In this document: positions 1 through 17,263 of the stretch, in pieces
Position numbering within the stretch: position 1 is the first letter of the stretch
Layout of the letters: every line of letters begins with the position of its first letter
Virus record (IMG/VR): IMGVR_UViG_3300037961_002519
Location: 1 to 26,936 of that record
From: a virus
Direction: 5' to 3' (one strand)
Length of the DNA: 26,936 nt
Position numbers and translations under genes: made by a program
The notes under the pieces: generated by a model
The model's database searches: none
Seen by the model: only the letters and a program-made list of their open reading frames with translations
Told to the model about the DNA's origin: nothing

Positions 1-861
1 AGCGGTAGCGGTGTTTTGTACAGCACCTTGCTCAGCAACCTTATAGATGGTTCTGATGACTTCACGGTTGATTTCAGCGAGGATCTCAGTTGACAGAATG
101 TTTGCCAACTCAGCTTCTGCATTCAGACCGTGGATTGCCTTGAGGTCCTGAGCGAGTTCTAACGAATACTCAGCCTTCAGGGCGCGTGACTTTGCAGTAA
201 CGGTGACCTTCTCGATCGAGAAGTTCATCTGGTTGAAGGCATTGTCGCCAGTGCCATCAAGTGCTTCTGCAGAGTCGGTTCTCATGCCCTGACCGACATT
301 GTAGCCGAGGGATGATGCAGAACCAACAGGGTTCAGTGCAGCAGGGTTAGTGCCAGACTGTGAAGTAGTACCCATACCAGCGATGGTATCGCTCTGTCCA
401 GTCTCGTCGTTGGAAGCGTTGTCGCGACCGGAGAAGGAGGTATCTGCTTCGTTGTAGAATGCCTCATCGCCAGCGGTACGGCTAGTACCATAGCGGGAGC
501 GCATTGCGAAGATCAGTCCAGTAGGACCGTTCATTGGTTGAACGCCAGCCAGGTCATAAGCGACCAGGTTAGGCATGGAGCGTCTGATCAAGGAGATCAG
601 AACGGGGTCGAAACCAGCAACAGGACCTGTTGCGGTTGCGTCAGCGGAGAAACCAGGGGTAGCACCAGAACCAGTGTTCATGGTGGGTTGCTCCATGAGC
701 ATTCCGCCATTTTCGAATGCGGATTGCTCTCTGAGGAATTTCTCTTGGTTTTCGAGCAGGACTGCGGTTACTGCCTTACGATGGGAATCTTTGATTGGAT
801 CAAGACCCTCATAGTTGAGGAGAGGTGCCCACTTTTCCTGCAGATGCTCTGATTGGAACAT
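1..861 (-). CDS. gp23: Major capsid protein gp23, N-terminal part (3' end runs out of window)
   Basis: This is the T4-like major capsid protein that forms the hexamers of the head shell. The reading frame is open from ATG at 861 to base 1, giving 287 codons, so the C-terminal part is missing. It starts MFQSEHLQEKWAPLL, similar to the T4 gp23 start region (LLNKWKPLL). The blocks NLVAYDLAGVQPMNGPTG and SRALKAEYSLELAQDLKAIH match conserved gp23 segments, followed by ELANILSTEILAEINREV. A probable prohead protease site, Leu-Met-Glu at residues 55-57, would remove the N-terminal delta region, as cleavage after Glu65 does in T4. A weak ribosome site (AAAGG) lies about 10 bases before the ATG. The gene follows scaffold gene gp22 after a 54-base gap, as in T4. 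Identity is secure; the exact cleavage point is inferred. Confidence 0.97.
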   Translation of the reverse strand, partial: MFQSEHLQEKWAPLLNYEGLDPIKDSHRKAVTAVLLENQEKFLREQSAFENGGMLMEQPTMNTGSGATPGFSADATATGPVAGFDPVLISLIRRSMPNLVAYDLAGVQPMNGPTGLIFAMRSRYGTSRTAGDEAFYNEADTSFSGRDNASNDETGQSDTIAGMGTTSQSGTNPAALNPVGSASSLGYNVGQGMRTDSAEALDGTGDNAFNQMNFSIEKVTVTAKSRALKAEYSLELAQDLKAIHGLNAEAELANILSTEILAEINREVIRTIYKVAEQGAVQNTATA

Positions 862-2067: not shown

Positions 2068-2718
2068 TCAAATACTATTGAGAAAATCATTGAACAGATT
2101 CAGTTTCTGCTCATCTAATTTCTTTTGATCTACCAGTGTATTAATGGTCTTGTATGTTTTTTCTGCATACTTCTCACGAAGAATGCCTCCATCCCATACC
2201 CACTCTTTACCTTCCATGATTCCCTCAACAAATGCATCGGGAGCTGAAGGATCAGCGACGATATCTGCAGCAGTTGCTAACATGAAATCTTCGCCAACTA
2301 CATTGTATCCTTCTTTGGTTTGCTTTAAAGAACCAATACCGCGAGAAGAAACGCCGAGTTTTACACCCTCACCTAAAAGTGATTGTGCAATCTTACCCAT
2401 CGGAGTTGAAAGAACCTTTGCTTTTCCGATGAAGTTTGAACCGCTTTCCTTCAAAGATACAATCTTATGAGATACACGATCCAAATTGACGGTAGGACCT
2501 TCGGGGTGACCAAGTTCTCCAAGAGCTCTGCCTTGGGCAACATGATTCTCATTATATCTAGTCACTTCACGACGAAGAGTTTCCATGGGATACATTCTGC
2601 CATTTCTGTTACAGATGTTTCCTTGAAGGAAAACTCCTTCAATGTAAAGTGATTGCTTACCGTTGCGATTTTCAACGATAATTTCAACCTTTTCGATTTC
2701 TTCTCTAATGAGTTTCAT
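2068..2718 (-). CDS. gp21: Prohead maturation protease gp21
   Basis: This is the serine protease inside the prohead that cuts the scaffold, the gp23 N terminus and internal proteins before DNA packaging. It is 216 residues, against 212 in T4. The N-terminal block SLYIEGVFLQGNICNRNGRMYP matches T4 GLYIEGIFMQAEVVNRNKRLYP in part. RALGELGHPEGP (residues 64-75) carries the expected catalytic His71. KLGVSSRGIGSL (residues 120-131) carries the nucleophile serine (Ser124 or Ser125), equivalent to the T4 GVSSRGLGSL motif. DPSAPDAFV (156-164) is also shared. The start ATG overlaps the stop of the preceding gene as TAATG, which suggests coupled translation. It sits between the core proteins and gp22, as in T4. 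Confidence 0.96.
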   Translation of the reverse strand: MKLIREEIEKVEIIVENRNGKQSLYIEGVFLQGNICNRNGRMYPMETLRREVTRYNENHVAQGRALGELGHPEGPTVNLDRVSHKIVSLKESGSNFIGKAKVLSTPMGKIAQSLLGEGVKLGVSSRGIGSLKQTKEGYNVVGEDFMLATAADIVADPSAPDAFVEGIMEGKEWVWDGGILREKYAEKTYKTINTLVDQKKLDEQKLNLFNDFLNSI

Positions 2719-8180: not shown

Positions 8181-8393
8181 CTACCAATCTGGATATTGCC
8201 AGTGATCGGATGATTTTTTTACTCTCTTTTTGGTGCAGTCCTTACATTCATATGAATATGAGGAAGCAACCGCTCCACGATCTTTTCTTGTTCTATAGAA
8301 GTCATCAACTAAATTCTTGACTTCTCCACACACTCTACATTTTCTATCTTGAAGTAATAAATGACCTAACTTTAATTGACCATCTAAGTCCAT
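8181..8393 (-). CDS. Small zinc-binding protein after the terminase
   Basis: This basic protein of 70 residues carries two CxxC pairs: CRVC at residues 18-21 and CKDC at 50-53, about 28 residues apart. That is a zinc-ribbon layout. Between them lies LVDDFYRTRKDRG and after them KKRVKKSSDHWQYPDW. The Cys spacing resembles the zinc site of T4 endonuclease VII (gp49), but the protein is far too short to contain the rest of that enzyme, so I do not call it a nuclease. I chose the ATG at 8393 because it overlaps the gp17 stop as TAATG, the same joint used elsewhere here. An in-frame ATG at 8411 would add six residues. Its place between gp17 and gp18 suggests a DNA-binding helper in packaging or processing; this is inferred. 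Confidence 0.8.
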   Translation of the reverse strand: MDLDGQLKLGHLLLQDRKCRVCGEVKNLVDDFYRTRKDRGAVASSYSYECKDCTKKRVKKSSDHWQYPDW

Positions 8394-10042
8394 TATGATA
8401 GATAATCCCACATATAAGCTCTATCACCATACTCATCAGTAAACCATCTATCGCCATCATTATCAACAAAACTATCACTGTTTAAACCATCATCGATAAA
8501 TCCAAATGGTGACATGTCTTGTTCAATCTGATTCTTCTGTTCCTCATATAATCTTTTGCGAACGTCTTGATCAGTTAGTTCTTTGAAATAATCTTGTGCA
8601 ACCAACCATGCATAGATGACAAGACACATTGCTAAGTCATCATTACATCCATCTTCAGCCTCAAATGAATTATTCTTTTGAATGAACGTTGTTAGTTCAG
8701 AAATAATTTCGTAGTCATTAAATAATAACTTATCTTCCTCAATAATTGTTTTAAGATTAAGTGCTCCAACCTTCTTTACAGTCTTGGACATCTTGACACC
8801 AAGTTGAGTTTTCTTACCAGAAAAACCCTGACCTACAATTTGTCCCGCTCTACCTCTCATTGAACACATGAGAAGGTTTTGATATTCCAAATCATATTGG
8901 AGGATACTCGCTACCTGATCTCCAATATCATTTACTTCGCATAAAATAAACGCACTGTTATAACTCTTTGCTACTTCCCAAATTATATTGGGAAATAACA
9001 TGGGTTTAATCTCATTATTCCTATACTTAGCTACAATTCTGTGAGGAAACTCTGTAATGTCTACGACCACGAACGCTGAATAATCTTCACTCACTCCACG
9101 AGCAACGTCTACTGTTATGACATAATCGTGATTTTCTTGAGATGATTCATATACATCCAACCCAGCATTTCTTTTAGATGGATTATCATAAATGAGAGTT
9201 CTGAGTTTACTGGGTGCAATCAGGGTATCAACTGATCCTAAGAACTCACATTCAAACTCAACCTTGAACTGTGCTTCTGACGTGTTCTTAATAGTTGTTT
9301 TTTTCCACTTCTCATCCCTACCTGGAACTTCTGACCAGTGAACATCTGTAGGGACATAATCATTCTTTTGTTTTTCTGCATCGTGCCACAGACGGTAGAA
9401 GTGGTTCATACCATGTGGCGTGGACACGATAATTACTTTGGTGTTTTTACCAGAAGTAATAGTAGGATAAACAGATGCAAAGAACGAGTCAGCGACGTGA
9501 TTTGGGACAAACGCGAACTCGTCGAGAAAGAGGATGTTGAACGACATACCTCGGACAGCACTTGCAGACGTAGAAGCTGCCAATATCTTACTGCCATTTT
9601 CTAATTCCAGAGATCCTTTGTTCCATGCTATGATACCTTGTTGCATCCATCGTGGCAAGTTTTCATAAGCAGTCTGTAACCTTCCAAGAAGTTCTCTTGC
9701 GGTTGCTGCTTTGTTTGCCAGAATGCCAATGTTTACGCTGTCATTGAATACAGCATAATGCAAAAGGTAAGATACGACTGTAGTGGATTTACCAGTTTGT
9801 CGTGGCATCTTACAGATATTAAATCTGTTATTGTGGAAGTTATTAATTAACTTCTCCTGGAAATGATATGGGTGGAACTGAGTCAAACCCTCATCAAGAG
9901 AAATAATCTTAACATAGTTATTTGCAAAGTAAACAGGATCTTCTTTGCATTTCATAAACTCAATAACTTGCTCTTGAGTAAACTCAATCGCAGTATTTGC
10001 TTTTTTTAAATTAGGATTGCCAAGATATACATTATCAGACAT
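8393..10042 (-). CDS. gp17: Terminase large subunit gp17 (packaging ATPase and nuclease)
   Basis: This is the motor and headful nuclease that pumps DNA through the portal. It is 549 residues against 610 in T4. The ATPase domain holds Walker A at residues 79-87 (MPRQTGKST, Lys85) and Walker B at about 170-175 (ILFLDE, Asp174 and catalytic Glu175). STPHGMNHFY (207-216) is the coupling motif region. The RNase H-like nuclease domain begins about residue 305: VITVDVARGVSEDYSAFVVV carries Asp312, FILCEVNDIGDQV carries Glu369, and CNDDLAMCLVIYAW carries the last acidic residues. QFKVEFECEFLGS is also typical of the family. A good ribosome site, AAGGAG, lies about 13 bases before the ATG, inside the end of the 52-residue gene upstream. 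Confidence 0.98.
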   Translation of the reverse strand: MSDNVYLGNPNLKKANTAIEFTQEQVIEFMKCKEDPVYFANNYVKIISLDEGLTQFHPYHFQEKLINNFHNNRFNICKMPRQTGKSTTVVSYLLHYAVFNDSVNIGILANKAATARELLGRLQTAYENLPRWMQQGIIAWNKGSLELENGSKILAASTSASAVRGMSFNILFLDEFAFVPNHVADSFFASVYPTITSGKNTKVIIVSTPHGMNHFYRLWHDAEKQKNDYVPTDVHWSEVPGRDEKWKKTTIKNTSEAQFKVEFECEFLGSVDTLIAPSKLRTLIYDNPSKRNAGLDVYESSQENHDYVITVDVARGVSEDYSAFVVVDITEFPHRIVAKYRNNEIKPMLFPNIIWEVAKSYNSAFILCEVNDIGDQVASILQYDLEYQNLLMCSMRGRAGQIVGQGFSGKKTQLGVKMSKTVKKVGALNLKTIIEEDKLLFNDYEIISELTTFIQKNNSFEAEDGCNDDLAMCLVIYAWLVAQDYFKELTDQDVRKRLYEEQKNQIEQDMSPFGFIDDGLNSDSFVDNDGDRWFTDEYGDRAYMWDYLS

Positions 10043-10047
10043 TCAGT

Positions 10048-10206
10048 TCAAACTCCTTTTAACATTGACCCTTTTTTTATTTGGGACGGTTTTAGAGAAT
10101 CTGCCGGTTTTTGGGGATTGTTTATAGCTTTATATCTAGCATTAATACTGGCATCTTTTTGAACAGGAGTTAAAGATGTTTCGTAAAATTGCTTGAAAGT
10201 TTTCAT
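10048..10206 (-). CDS. Small basic protein starting MKTFKQF; possible internal head protein
   Basis: This 52-residue gene fills the gap between the 675-residue gene and gp17. Its ATG is one base after the upstream stop (TGATATG) and its stop is 5 bases before the gp17 ATG, so it fits the operon exactly. It starts MKTFKQFYETS. T4 internal proteins start with the capsid targeting sequence MKTYQEFIAE, which places them in the prohead core and is removed by gp21. Here FYE at residues 7-9 could be the cleavage site. The rest, such as PQKPADSLKPSQIKKGSML, is basic (about 8 Lys/Arg against 2 Asp) and probably unstructured. An AATAAATA late motif lies 28 bases upstream. That it is a real gene is well supported by fit and start; the internal-protein role is inference. 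Confidence 0.72.
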   Translation of the reverse strand: MKTFKQFYETSLTPVQKDASINARYKAINNPQKPADSLKPSQIKKGSMLKGV

Positions 10207-10207
10207 A

Positions 10208-12235
10208 TCAGCAGTTCCAAGCTCTTAATGATTTATTTATTCTACTGTTGGGATCGTTAGCAGTTTTAGATGAAGTCAACTTTTTCTTCATACCCTTCAT
10301 TCGAGCACAAAATGATGCGCGACGGGGGTTTCCAACCTTCTTGCTTGGTGCCTTAAGGTCGCTTCCAGGATTCTCTCTTTCGTAAGATTTGCGTCCTTTT
10401 TCGTTGAGTCCACCTGATTTTTTCTTTCCTTCCTTTCTTGTCCATGCTGCTGATTCTGCATGGAGAAGTGGTTGTCCTGGGACATACTCGGATACCTGGT
10501 AACTTTGAACTTTAGCGCCAGGATAGACCTTTTCAATCTGATCTTGTACTTCAGATCTACTTGGTTTCTTTACCGTTGGGAAAAACATTTTAATGCCATA
10601 ATATTTTCCTCTCCATGAGAGGTGAACCATAATAATGTTTCCAGTTTTTGCTGGGATGCGAATGGCTTCATTAACTTCTTCGGGGCAGGCATCGGAACCA
10701 TGAACTGGGCAATCTTTACCCTTCTTGGTGTGAACGCATTCTGCCTCTTCTTTTTTGACACAGTTTGGATATCTCTTACCAAACATGGTCTTCATGCCTT
10801 TCTTCTCATATCCTTTCCAACACTTCTCATCAAGTTCAAATTCTTCTTTCTTAGTCTTAGACTTGTTTCCCCAGTTGGCAGCACCAACTTTACGGCATTT
10901 GACCAGTGCTCCTGACGCATATGCACTTGGCCAAACAGAGTAGCGTGATTTGACTTTGTGGTAGCAAGCATCTTTCTTGCCTTCCTCAATATCAATTTGA
11001 TCACCTACTTCAACATTATTTTCTGCGAACCATCCACGGTTTACTTCTAACGCGCACAGTACTTCTCCATCCGAAGTTACTGGGGATTCGTCAAATGGTT
11101 CTAGTTCTTTTATGCTTTCGATTATGCCATCCTCTCTGATGAAAGCAATATCCAGAGGGATTTTGGTTTCTTTCATGTAGAAAGATTGCTCTGCTACTTC
11201 ATCAAAGACGAACAGCATTCCACTGTTTTCTTCTAAACTTTCGCGGAACATGAGTCCCAAGTTGAAATCTCTAATGTTATTTGGAATTTCGATGTTGAGT
11301 GGCAGAGTTACGAACTCTGTGCTTTCCTTTACAGATTTCATTTTTTTCTTGGGTTTATCAGTTGGAACATATGTGGGTTTTGCCGCACCAGTCTTTTGTG
11401 GTTGACCAGGATCAGCAGCTCTCTTTCTTCTTTGAGCAGACTCTCTTTCGGATTTGCTCATGCTTGCTCTCTTTGCAGAGGACACGCATTTAGGTGTTGA
11501 TTTTTGACCAGGTTGACGAGCACAGGGTTTACCTGACACTACTTGAACCCAACCAGGTTTCCCACCTTTTGATCTTGACTTACCAAACCAATCGCGAAGA
11601 CCTTCTTCACTTACAGTGCCACCGTTTCCGTTGCCACCATTACCATTACCATTACCATTACCATTTCCGTTGCCATTACCATTCTTTTTGGTATCGTCAA
11701 CAGAATGACCATTTTCTTTACGAAGCATTCCTGCACGACCAACTACTTTGAATCCTTTGGGGATTGGCTTACACTTTTCATCGGTGTAACAGTAGTATTG
11801 TCCTTCAGGGCAACGACCATTCTTCTTCTCTTCATTTACATCACCAGAAGTATCTTTCTTATGAAGATTCTTATAGAGATGTTTATGAAGAGGTTTTGCT
11901 TTATTCATGATTTTATCTTTTTCAGAATAGTCTTGCGCTTCATTCATTTTTTTGGTCTTCTTCTTCATTGAGTTAATGAACTTTCTATAAACCGCTGCTT
12001 CTGAAGTCTTTCCCATTTCTCTTGCTCTCTGTTCCATAGCAACAGCTGCCTGGATTTTGTGAGCATGAGATCTTGATGAATTACGAATCTTAGAAACAGA
12101 TGCTTTAGCAGTCGCAACATCCTTAAACCCAAGTCCATGAATCGTGCCTTTTGGATTTTCATCCGTATAAAGGTCAGAGTGTTTCTTGGAGTTTGCTGGT
12201 TGACCAGGTTTTCTTGGGATACGAGGATTGCTCAT
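10208..12235 (-). CDS. Mosaic lysine-rich protein with DUF192 domain and several Cys-bearing modules
   Basis: This protein of 675 residues looks like a chain of small basic modules. Residues 18-99 are a helical unit (HGLGFKDVATAKASVSKI). 139-166 hold CPEGQYYCYTDEKCKPIPKG. 185-206 are Asn-Gly repeats. 211-292 hold GLRDWFGKS, GWVQVVSGKPCAR and PKCVSSAKRASMSKSER. 306-419 are a DUF192 domain (GLMFRESL, GMLFVFDE, IPLDIAFI, ALEVNRGWF). 421-457 hold CYHKVKSRYSVWPSAYASGA. 468-493 hold CWKGYEKKGMK and RYPNC. 499-517 are a Cys/His knuckle. 525-592 are a small alpha/beta unit. 605-675 hold GGLNEKGRKSYERENPGSDL and end NKSLRAWNC. The function is unknown. No enzyme site is evident. Its strong basic charge and its place between the terminase genes suggest a DNA-associated virion protein. 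Its ATG overlaps the upstream stop as ATGA. Confidence 0.9.
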   Translation of the reverse strand: MSNPRIPRKPGQPANSKKHSDLYTDENPKGTIHGLGFKDVATAKASVSKIRNSSRSHAHKIQAAVAMEQRAREMGKTSEAAVYRKFINSMKKKTKKMNEAQDYSEKDKIMNKAKPLHKHLYKNLHKKDTSGDVNEEKKNGRCPEGQYYCYTDEKCKPIPKGFKVVGRAGMLRKENGHSVDDTKKNGNGNGNGNGNGNGNGGNGNGGTVSEEGLRDWFGKSRSKGGKPGWVQVVSGKPCARQPGQKSTPKCVSSAKRASMSKSERESAQRRKRAADPGQPQKTGAAKPTYVPTDKPKKKMKSVKESTEFVTLPLNIEIPNNIRDFNLGLMFRESLEENSGMLFVFDEVAEQSFYMKETKIPLDIAFIREDGIIESIKELEPFDESPVTSDGEVLCALEVNRGWFAENNVEVGDQIDIEEGKKDACYHKVKSRYSVWPSAYASGALVKCRKVGAANWGNKSKTKKEEFELDEKCWKGYEKKGMKTMFGKRYPNCVKKEEAECVHTKKGKDCPVHGSDACPEEVNEAIRIPAKTGNIIMVHLSWRGKYYGIKMFFPTVKKPSRSEVQDQIEKVYPGAKVQSYQVSEYVPGQPLLHAESAAWTRKEGKKKSGGLNEKGRKSYERENPGSDLKAPSKKVGNPRRASFCARMKGMKKKLTSSKTANDPNSRINKSLRAWNC
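10234..10241 (-). promoter_or_regulatory. Late promoter motif AATAAATA before the 52-residue gene and gp17
   Basis: AATAAATA on the minus strand, 28 bases before the ATG of the 52-residue gene. It lies within the last codons of the 675-residue gene (AGA ATA AAT AAA). Its spacing matches that of gp20 and gp67. It would give the large terminase and its small upstream neighbour their own late transcript. Confidence 0.55.
11618..11683 (-). repeat. Hexanucleotide tract encoding Asn-Gly repeats
   Basis: On the minus strand a GGTAAT/GGCAAC-type hexamer repeats, encoding eight Asn-Gly pairs then G, two more pairs and G (residues 185-206 of the 675-residue protein). The central copies are nearly identical (AATGGT), a typical slippage-prone tandem repeat. 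At protein level it is a flexible linker between modules. Confidence 0.9.
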
Positions 12236-12387
12236 TCAACTGGTTTAGATTTAGTTTGACCACCTGCTGCTCTTTTTTTACGTCCAGCACAGTGTGCTTT
12301 CTGAGAGAATCCTTTCGGATTTGAACAGTCAATACTCTTTTTATATTTATTAGACCAAGACTCTTGAAACTGTTTGTATGTTTTCAT
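12232..12387 (-). CDS. Small basic protein starting MKTYKQF with a paired-Cys module; possible internal head protein
   Basis: This 51-residue gene fits exactly between two neighbours: its ATG overlaps the stop of the 656-residue gene (ATGA), and its own stop overlaps the ATG of the 675-residue gene (ATGA). It starts MKTYKQFQESW, sharing MKTYxxF with the T4 capsid targeting sequence MKTYQEFIAE and MKTxKQF with the 52-residue gene before gp17. FQE at residues 7-9 could be cut by gp21. The remainder holds DCSNPKGFSQKAHCAGRKKR (residues 20-39), a compact Cys-x11-Cys basic unit, followed by AAGGQTKSKPVE. It carries roughly 11 Lys/Arg against 2 acidic residues after the proposed cut. The module style matches the adjacent mosaic protein. 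Coding reality is well supported by the two overlaps; function is inferred. Confidence 0.78.
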   Translation of the reverse strand: MKTYKQFQESWSNKYKKSIDCSNPKGFSQKAHCAGRKKRAAGGQTKSKPVE

Positions 12388-14395: not shown

Positions 14396-14824
14396 TTATT
14401 TATCGTCTTCTTTAAGTCCAGTCTTCAGCATTTTGGCAAGTTCTGCTGTAGAACCAACAAACAGTGCATTAGTTACATTCTGAGGTGATTTTGCTGCAGA
14501 TTCTTCTTGAACTTCTTTGAGTTCCTTCTGCAATTTCATCAGTTTATCGGTTGCATCAGCAACGTTCTTGATCAGTTGACCAGCAACCTCATATGCTCTT
14601 GGCATCTCACTTTCTTGCGCTAATTCCAAGATTCCATTAAGTGCCTCTTGACCTTTTTCTATGACTGAATATAAATTTCCTCGTGTATATTCATAGTCTT
14701 TAACAATATCATCTTTGGATTGTTGTTTCACAATATCAGTTTTTTGATCCTTTGATTCAGGAACAACCGTGCTCTCTACATTGAAAGCATCATCTAGATT
14801 GTCATACTTTTTTGTCATTTTCAT
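14396..14824 (-). CDS. gp16: Terminase small subunit gp16
   Basis: This is the small terminase that recognises DNA and stimulates the gp17 ATPase. It is 142 residues, against 164 in T4. The N terminus is charged and probably flexible. Residues 42-100 are two long helices (DYEYTRGNLYSVIEKGQEAL and SEMPRAYEVAGQLIKNVADA), which align in pattern with T4 gp16 (DYGVVRRNMHF, SPRHMEVFATLMGQM). The C-terminal NVTNALFVGSTAELAKML matches T4 QNATVFMGSPTELMDEI. The start ATG overlaps the gp15 stop (TGATG). A second in-frame ATG two codons later is an alternative. The next gene is not gp17 but the coiled-coil protein, so the two terminase genes are more than 4 kb apart, unlike T4. Confidence 0.92.
   Translation of the reverse strand: MKMTKKYDNLDDAFNVESTVVPESKDQKTDIVKQQSKDDIVKDYEYTRGNLYSVIEKGQEALNGILELAQESEMPRAYEVAGQLIKNVADATDKLMKLQKELKEVQEESAAKSPQNVTNALFVGSTAELAKMLKTGLKEDDK
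14397..14404 (-). promoter_or_regulatory. Late promoter motif GATAAATA before the coiled-coil gene
   Basis: GATAAATA on the minus strand, 43 bases before the 656-residue gene. It overlaps the last codons and stop of gp16 (GAT AAA TAA). Confidence 0.5.
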
Positions 14825-15847: not shown

Positions 15848-15855
15848 TATTTAGA
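15848..15855 (-). promoter_or_regulatory. Possible late promoter motif TCTAAATA before gp15
   Basis: TCTAAATA on the minus strand differs at one position from TATAAATA and contains CTAAATA. It is 38 bases before the gp15 ATG, and its TAA is the gp14 stop. This is weaker than the other motifs because the change falls in the usually fixed ATAAATA core. Confidence 0.35.
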
Positions 15856-17263
15856 CTTGTCCGAATGGATTCCTCTCACTAAAGTCAATGATCGCATCTG
15901 CAGCAGTTTCAATATCAGCATTGTCTGCAAATCCATCATCAACTGGATCTGTGTTGGCCTTTCTCAGTGCATGAGAAGCACCAGAGGTTGAACCAACGAT
16001 GTCCTCTCCAACGCGGAAAGTTCCTGTAACGTTTGATACCTCCAGAATATTTGTGCCCGAGTTCCAAGAACGAACTCTTGCAGTTGTTCCAGAAGTTGAA
16101 CCTGTTACCACTTCGTTGAAAACAAAGTCTCCAACAGAACTCATTGATGGATCTGAGATTGTGATTGTTGGTGCTACTGTATATCCTGCACCAGAGTTTG
16201 TAATATGAATCGCTGAGATAGACCCAGAAGCGTTTATAACCGCTGTTGCAGCGGCAGAGACAGTAGATACCCCAGTGAAAGTGATTGTAGGTGATGTCGT
16301 GTATCCAGAACCACCACCTGTGACCGTTACAATTCCAATGGTTCCATTATCGATTACAGAGGTTGCTGCAGCTCCACTTCCACCACCACCAATAAATTTG
16401 ACTCCAGGTGCCACGGTATATCCTGCACCTGGGTTTACTATCCTGACTTCCTGAACAGAAGTGGATGCGGGATTTGCGCTATCCGAACAGACAACAATGC
16501 CACCAATCATAATCGCAGTGGCAATACCTGTTGTTCCTCCTGCAGGGGCAGATCCTATTCCAACAGTTGGTGCATATGTATAACCAGCACCTCTGTTGGA
16601 TACGGTGATTTTTCTGATACCACCATTGACCAACCCAGTAACTGCAGTTGCGGTGGCTCCAGTGCCAACCACTGTCAAAGTTTGAACGTGACCTATTGCA
16701 TATGAAGTTCCATCAGCACCATCAATTGGTTCTAAGGTGTCATCAATTTCATCAACACCAGTATCGATAATTTCATTTTCATATCTGAAGAGTTCGCACT
16801 TCAGTTCATAAACATAATTCTTTTGTAACTGATAAAATGGTTTTTCGTGCTCAACATATTTTATTTCAAATAATCTATCTCCAAGAGGGAAATAGATCAG
16901 GTCACCTTCTTTAGGTCTAGATGATAGTTTTATATTTTGTTCGTTCTCAATTAAAGGGGTTATATAAGTTTCAAACCTTTCCTTTGATATAATTAAAGTA
17001 ATTTCATTTGTTGCTTGAATACCAAACTTTGATAATAAGGTTACATTATCTCCATAACCATCAAAATTATCAACGTATGCTTCGATAGGATAAGCATCAT
17101 CAAATTTTGATTGAATGACTTCTTTTATTACCGTGTTTTCGTTAAGGTATTTTCTAGGAAGATAGTGTACTTCTACACCATACATTTTCAACTGCTCATT
17201 AATCAAACTTTGAACAAGACTTTGTTCTCCAGAAGATCCTTGTAAAAAATATTGGTTTAACAT
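15851..17263 (-). CDS. gp14: Neck protein gp14 with a large Gly-rich repeat insertion
   Basis: gp14 is part of the head completion and neck complex with gp13. Residues 1-180 are the family core: MLNQYFLQGS, SLINEQLKMYGVEVHYLPRK, FDDAYPIEAYVDNFDGYGD, LLSKFGIQATNEITLIIS, RPKEGDLIYFPLGDRLFEIK, HEKPFYQLQKNYVYELKCEL. The last 26 residues (NADIETAADAIIDFSERNPF then GQV) look like the usual gp14 tail. Between them, about residues 195-440 are an insertion with four GAGYT/GSGYT repeats (225, 279, 318, 358) and a TSGTTARVRSW unit near 390. This makes the protein 470 residues, against 256 in T4. The start is 6 bases after the gp13 stop. The insertion probably projects from the neck. That is inference. 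Confidence 0.95.
   Translation of the reverse strand: MLNQYFLQGSSGEQSLVQSLINEQLKMYGVEVHYLPRKYLNENTVIKEVIQSKFDDAYPIEAYVDNFDGYGDNVTLLSKFGIQATNEITLIISKERFETYITPLIENEQNIKLSSRPKEGDLIYFPLGDRLFEIKYVEHEKPFYQLQKNYVYELKCELFRYENEIIDTGVDEIDDTLEPIDGADGTSYAIGHVQTLTVVGTGATATAVTGLVNGGIRKITVSNRGAGYTYAPTVGIGSAPAGGTTGIATAIMIGGIVVCSDSANPASTSVQEVRIVNPGAGYTVAPGVKFIGGGGSGAAATSVIDNGTIGIVTVTGGGSGYTTSPTITFTGVSTVSAAATAVINASGSISAIHITNSGAGYTVAPTITISDPSMSSVGDFVFNEVVTGSTSGTTARVRSWNSGTNILEVSNVTGTFRVGEDIVGSTSGASHALRKANTDPVDDGFADNADIETAADAIIDFSERNPFGQV
16154..16609 (-). repeat. Four GxGYT repeats in the gp14 insertion
   Basis: Residues 219-370 of gp14 hold four copies of a pattern like I-x-V-x3-GAGYT-x-AP-x-V/I: ITVSNRGAGYTYAPTV, VRIVNPGAGYTVAPGV, VTVTGGGSGYTTSPTI and IHITNSGAGYTVAPTI. 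Spacing is 54, 39 and 40 residues. Similar units occur near residues 1945 and 2000 of the 2533-residue protein (SGIGYTP, SGTGYQVGD). Confidence 0.9.

Follow-up and report, generated by a model that had tools for sequence, protein, structure and literature searches.

The internal proteins of phage T4 are encoded by single genes with one leader each. For packaging in T4, the ten N-terminal residues of IPIII are sufficient, and mutagenesis has assigned leader residues 4 and 7 to targeting and residues 8 and 10 to processing by gp21, which cuts after L/I-X-E (PMC9026906). In the T4 record, ipII and ipIII begin MKTYQEFIAE/A (here and below, a slash after E marks a known or predicted cleavage position) and IPI begins MKTFKEF. 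In SPN3US and phiKZ, a prohead protease with A-X-E specificity cuts ejection proteins packed with the DNA, and some propeptides are cut at several sites (PMC10052503). Polyvalent proteins, in turn, carry many enzymatic domains in one phage polypeptide that is thought to be delivered at infection, and their processing is attributed mainly to zincin-like or assemblin-like peptidase domains within the chain (PMC5512222).

For marine phages, it is an open question which proteins travel in the head and reach the host first. A literature search outside subscription papers found no earlier report on a T4-type leader in cyanophages, on DUF6321 or on internal-head polyproteins. Here we analyzed a window of 26,936 nucleotides (IMG/VR record IMGVR_UViG_3300037961_002519, positions 1 to 26,936), which encodes a 675-residue modular protein (10208..12235, minus strand). 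We consider it likely that this protein is an internal-head precursor, cut by a gp21-type protease into small, mostly basic proteins.

The locus and the segments of the 675-residue protein

The DNA of the window is part of a T4-like cyanophage genome, with SynMITS9220M01, S-SM2 and Bellamy as its closest isolates. Its genes, part of which were named through synteny with annotated relatives, follow on the minus strand in the order gp13, gp14, gp15, gp16, a tail-fibre-like gene, a 51-residue gene, the 675-residue gene, a 52-residue gene, gp17, gp18, gp19, gp20, gp21, gp22 and gp23. The 675-residue gene had been placed between the terminase subunits, and it indeed lies between gp16 (14396-14824) and gp17 (8393-10042). 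The gp21-type prohead protease, our proposed processing enzyme, is assigned to 2068..2718 (minus strand) by synteny and by alignment with annotated gp21 of relatives. The window's gp23 carries an LME/ motif (691..699, minus strand), presumably at the position of the T4 gp23 maturation site, where gp23 of relatives has FLAE/APTN or LLTE/APTQ. The gp14 homologue (15851-17263) has 470 residues, and its C-terminal half gives matches to virion structural and baseplate protein profiles.

The 675-residue ORF is real and conserved: tblastn identified homologues over the full length in SynMITS9220M01, S-SM2 and Bellamy, as well as partial ones in 500 phage records, and the phrog_727 profile covers residues 1-675. 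The gene is a member of the phrog_727/T4-GC119/DUF6321 cyanophage proteins, recorded as of unknown function, for which neither modular processing nor a leader is described in the papers found. The protein contains 15 Cys and 95 Lys (pI 9.65, net charge +49). When it is compared with proteins of IMG/VR, GTDB contigs and reference phages, nine segments can be told apart, DUF192 and DUF6321 among them, in agreement with the original prediction of a string of short modules. That the modules are basic holds for eight of the nine segments, but not for the DUF192 segment, which is acidic (pI 4.1, net charge -20).

All segments are given on the minus strand. M1 (residues 1-99; 11939..12235) is basic (net charge +14) and ends KKMNE/; it also stands directly behind a leader in a partial ORF of contig L168 (MKTFKQFIE/APRIPRKKGQ). 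M2 (residues 100-135; 11831..11938) ends GDVNE/, and M3 (residues 136-210; 11606..11830), of CPxGxYYC type with an NG repeat, ends GTVSE/. M4 (residues 211-304; 11324..11605) is basic (net charge +18), has two Cys and ends KSVKE/. M5, the DUF192 domain (residues 305-418; 10982..11323), ends DIEE/. M6 (ACYHKVK..; residues 419-470; 10826..10981) ends FELDE/ and is weakly DUF5872-like; the PF19197 cut-off of 27.5 was reached neither by M6 (17.5 bits, E 0.006) nor by M6 followed by M4 (18.7 bits), so that a possible kinship with DUF5872 is a lead only. M7 (CWKGY..PNCV plus a Cys-rich tail; residues 471-523; 10667..10825) ends EEVNE/. M8 (RIPAKTGN..WRGKYYG; residues 524-594; 10454..10666), also found as single genes behind a leader, meets M9 at HAE/S. 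M9, the DUF6321 domain (residues 595-675; 10211..10453), is basic (net charge +17) and also occurs as single leader-bearing genes and as stand-alone podophage genes.

The two Pfam domains are clear. DUF192 (PF02643) matches residues 314-416 with 93 bits against a cut-off of 27, and the segment also matches the solved structures 3m7a and 3pjy at the sequence level. Its presence in a phage had been called unexpected, and it is rare: it was found in eight of 50,697 records, which represent three cyanophage isolates and three gut phages. DUF192 is a cassette present in part of the relatives only. DUF6321 (PF19846) matches residues 603-673 with 77.5 bits against a cut-off of 28.5, and is widespread (518 records). 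In small podophages, DUF6321 genes adjoin capsid, scaffold or terminase genes as well as other tiny basic proteins (L306:4959-5377, L307:4828-5192, L308:4992-5714). Modelled alone, DUF6321 gives a confident structure (pLDDT 86, pTM 0.64), for which Foldseek found no PDB match below E 3 and a second look with VIA gave one row only, at Z 2.2; among viral structures, the well-scoring matches to the model were either DUF6321 proteins or proteins without a name. No function was therefore read from the fold, and the absence of the model from lists of structure matches does not show that the predicted fold is new. The AlphaFold2 model of the whole protein has low confidence (mean pLDDT 47, pTM 0.22), and for this reason it was not used to judge the accessibility of cleavage sites.

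Pfam detected no enzyme or peptidase domain in the 675-residue protein, DUF192 and DUF6321 being the only matches above cut-off. Searches with single modules gave no match above cut-off; matches to MMPL, Toxin_32 and DsbC_N, all below it, were discarded as noise. These results bear on the possibility that the protein is an injected effector string like the polyvalent proteins (Iyer et al. 2017), delivered uncut and, if processed at all, cut inside the host by a different peptidase. A multidomain chain and a virion-gene context would fit such a string. Nevertheless, the protein does not have the several enzymatic domains, often with a peptidase, that characterize polyvalent proteins, DUF192 is the only module for which we found relatives outside viruses, and the motif at the module junctions (see below) agrees with gp21-type specificity; of all the explanations considered, this is the one to which we give least credence.

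Leaders on the flanking genes and on other proteins

Two small genes that flank the 675-residue gene are the only leader-bearing ORFs in the window. The 51-residue gene (12232..12387, minus strand), which overlaps the 675-residue gene by 4 bases (ATGA), encodes the leader MKTYKQFQE/ (next residue S) followed by module M10. As anticipated, it carries one more module of the same style, which is also found fused inside long proteins. The 52-residue gene (10048..10206, minus strand) encodes the leader MKTFKQFYE/ (next residue T) and a basic remainder of 43 residues. What had been predicted did not include this second ORF, the leaders of T4 type on the two small genes, or the protease-like motif at the junctions. 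In both leaders, positions 4 and 7 are aromatic and the residue before the cut is E, and the pattern MKTFKQFxE agrees with the capsid-targeting sequence (CTS) found on T4 internal proteins.

No T4-type leader was found at the N-terminus of the 675-residue protein itself (MSNPRIPRKPGQ), and hence we do not class it as an ordinary T4-type internal protein. The missing leader counts against the precursor reading, which does not account for entry into the core. Translational coupling to the 51-residue leader gene through the ATGA overlap, or affinity of one of the modules for the core, are guesses as to how this might happen.

We scanned viral contigs for DNA encoding MKTFKQF, used as the sole criterion, and obtained 80 proteins after removal of similar ones. 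Glu is found at position 9 or 10 in 70 of the 80, against a background of about 6%. One leader on 80 proteins that are dissimilar after it is what a targeting signal predicts. Six modules were found behind a short leader (M4, M7, M8, M9, M10 and M11), in addition to M1 in the partial ORF. Of the multi-module genes, 30 of 88 have a leader ORF within 700 bases on the upstream side and 24 of 94 on the downstream side; these rates are upper estimates because part of the loci were picked by the leader pattern.

The leader also precedes enzymes. Cytidylyltransferase/NMNAT proteins are repeatedly found in cyanophage virions, and every cyanophage copy examined has the leader, the HTVC008M relative having a variant start; the leader would explain their route into the head. 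Examples are MKSFFQFLSE/, MKKFSAFLKE/ and MKNFSSFLTE/ (loci L299:31761-32987, L300:4001-5152, L302:3001-4149, L158:38819-40048 and L304:20609-21469). MKTFKQF also heads predicted cytidylyltransferase-like proteins (L167, L170, L249), a phospholipase A2-like protein (L270, below cut-off) and two proteins that by eye are cell-wall hydrolase-like (L194, L265).

Separately, several leader-bearing or small virion proteins (L155:5576-6004, L197, L222, L304 gp160 and S-SCSM1_97) were seen to contain a stretch similar to the N-terminus of mature gp23 (APTNAVGxxGFxG...GPxAGFDPVL); one example is MKTLKQFLKE/TPTNSVGNGGYTSAGGQTVAGYD.

Module exchange and the junction motif

With profiles of ten modules we found 285 module-bearing proteins, which display 75 architectures, module repeats and insertions among them. 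The layout is thus not constant among relatives, and the idea of exchangeable modules that exist alone or fused is well supported. A second locus with module strings lies near the cytidylyltransferase gene (L299:32995-34404, L300:5149-6123, L158:40061-41623, L304:24343-25236); its strings contain M4, M6, M7 and others, with hydrophobic-x-E junctions.

The linkers had been described as low-complexity, which is correct as far as it goes, but they also carry a prohead-protease-like motif, hydrophobic-x-E. The pattern [LIVMF]xE is present in 93% of 208 distinct linkers, compared to 60% when each linker is shuffled, and it lies within 8 residues before the core of the next module in 168 of the 208, compared to 50 ± 5.5 after shuffling. 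Since linkers share ancestry, z-scores overstate the significance of these differences. As a partial remedy, one linker was taken per module pair, and the motif was near the next core in 35 of 38, compared to 21 ± 2.8 in shuffled linkers. With very short linkers included, 179 of 214 had the motif (shuffled, 83 ± 6.7). The control motifs [LIVMF]xD, [LIVMF]E, [LIVMF]xxxE and [AGSTP]xE showed no enrichment in the 208 linkers relative to shuffled ones, and [LIVMF]xxE showed a mild one. The 675-residue protein has the motif at seven of its eight module borders, the M8-M9 border (HAE/S) being without a canonical one. The commonest P3 residue at junctions is V (58 of 168), followed by L, I, M and F, a range broader than the published L/I of T4, which counts against the protein being a precursor cut by gp21.

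Within the modules of the 675-residue protein, hydrophobic-x-E occurs ten times in DUF192 and once (LNE) in M9. If the chain is cut as we propose, these copies must be shielded by folding or tolerated. LNE in DUF6321 was set aside as a cleavage site, since distant M9s do not conserve it. Given their own composition, module cores were not convincingly poor in the motif, and we make no claim of a depletion.

These observations have to be weighed against a multidomain head protein that stays uncut: its modules would act jointly as a single long and flexible basic chain, DNA-binding or scaffold-like, with motifs that are not cleaved. Cleavage at the junctions is deduced from the motif, virion homologues have been detected under the name of the full-length gene, the N-terminus is leaderless, and we found no published observation of a cleaved terminus of such proteins. 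We nonetheless consider an uncut chain unlikely, given that the motif just before the next module exceeds the expectation from composition by far while control motifs do not, that the same modules occur singly behind leaders of cleavable type, and that whole leaders are found within fused proteins.

The last point concerns the origin of the chains. We identified 15 internal leader-like sequences in module-bearing fused proteins, mostly directly before a module (e.g., MKTFAEFQAE/CWKTHKK and KTFEQFQE/DWSDKYKK). Such clear internal leaders could mean that the junction motifs are remnants of fused leader genes, decaying neutrally in fusions that work uncut. However, the targeting half of the leader has mostly decayed, while 36 of 38 module-pair types retain the x-E half, a pattern suggestive of selection for the part needed for cleavage; neutral relics are in our opinion very improbable.

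Podophages offer a comparison. In P-SCSP1d and HTVC304P, GLYANIH and DUF6321 are encoded by separate neighbouring genes, both leaderless, beside capsid or scaffold genes, and no prohead protease annotation was found in the stretches examined. The T4-like contig L088 encodes GLYANIH and DUF6321 in one leader-bearing protein of 140 residues, in which FELEE/ separates the two modules. The comparison is small, and points in the same direction as the polyprotein reading.

Under the precursor reading, the 675-residue protein would be built into the prohead core, and, as the head matures, the gp21-type protease would cut it behind hydrophobic-x-E at the majority of module borders. The freed modules would stay in the head with the packaged DNA, at least in part, and would probably be ejected with the DNA and enter the host. 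To judge from charge alone, DNA condensation by the modules, in line with the DNA-condensing or DNA-protecting head protein first suggested, is possible. Each module would be an exchangeable unit that may also exist as its own gene with a T4-type capsid-targeting leader, like the 51- and 52-residue genes. New polyproteins would arise by fusion of leader-bearing genes, in which the targeting half decays and the cleavage site is kept.

Virion proteins of relatives and comparison with known systems

Published proteomics of two relatives, S-SCSM1 and S-CREM2, support a virion location, mass spectrometry of virions reporting presence in the particle and not position inside the head. In S-SCSM1, 45 proteins were detected by mass spectrometry (PMC9602691), and the homologue SSCSM1_29, labelled as a virion protein, has the motif at every module border. 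The published virion list of S-CREM2 includes gp136, gp137, gp154 and gp160. Leaders are present on gp136 (MQTFSMFFSE/) and on the cytidylyltransferase gp154 (MKNFSSFLTE/), gp137 contains relatives of M8 and M9, and gp160 contains M4, M7 and M6. In S-SM2 and P-SSM4, the GenBank note "similar to Synechococcus phage S-SM1 protein" is attached to virion genes and to T4-GC119, and is absent from replication genes, gp16 and gp17. Read from these notes, T4-GC119 was very likely detected in the S-SM1 virion.

A broader reading would be that marine T4-like phages have an open cargo system, in which a CTS leader, or a place between hydrophobic-x-E sites of a polyprotein, would be enough for any small protein to be loaded into the head, freed by gp21 and delivered to the cell, with a shared pool of cargo, including NAD-synthesis-like enzymes and DUF192, shuffled among cyanophages and their relatives. 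We advance it tentatively, as somewhat less probable than not. With the 10-residue leader and the junction motifs, "hypothetical proteins" would become head-cargo candidates that can be listed and tested, and the hypervariable region adjacent to the terminase would acquire a function; the leader would explain why cytidylyltransferase/NMNAT proteins recur in cyanophage virions.

We propose that the arrangement of the 675-residue protein is an extension of the T4 system of internal proteins. As with IPI, IPII and IPIII, there is a leader of the form MK-x-F/Y-xx-F-(hydrophobic)-x-E, the mature parts are small and basic, the genes stand in the company of head-protein genes, and a gp21 gene is present. 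Unlike the T4 internal proteins, the cyanophage chain joins many modules, has no N-terminal leader, carries protease-like motifs between modules that are shuffled between phages, and its cleavage is a prediction. In being a single precursor with several gp21-type motifs, it resembles the T4 core proteins gp22 and gp67, each of which gp21 cuts into several fragments (PMC9026906); these fragments are mostly discarded scaffold waste, whereas the cyanophage pieces are conserved modules that are also encoded separately. The likeness to SPN3US and phiKZ lies in the action of a prohead protease on proteins packed with DNA; there, cleavage removes propeptides, and a string of exchangeable mature modules is not described in the text of PMC10052503 consulted. 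The many domains in one polypeptide recall polyvalent proteins (PMC5512222), from which the cyanophage modules differ in being tiny, basic and without a recognised enzyme. Judged by its sequence, the 675-residue protein most likely behaves like several T4 internal proteins linked together, and such a polyprotein would represent a novel means by which a phage provides more than one internal protein through a single gene.
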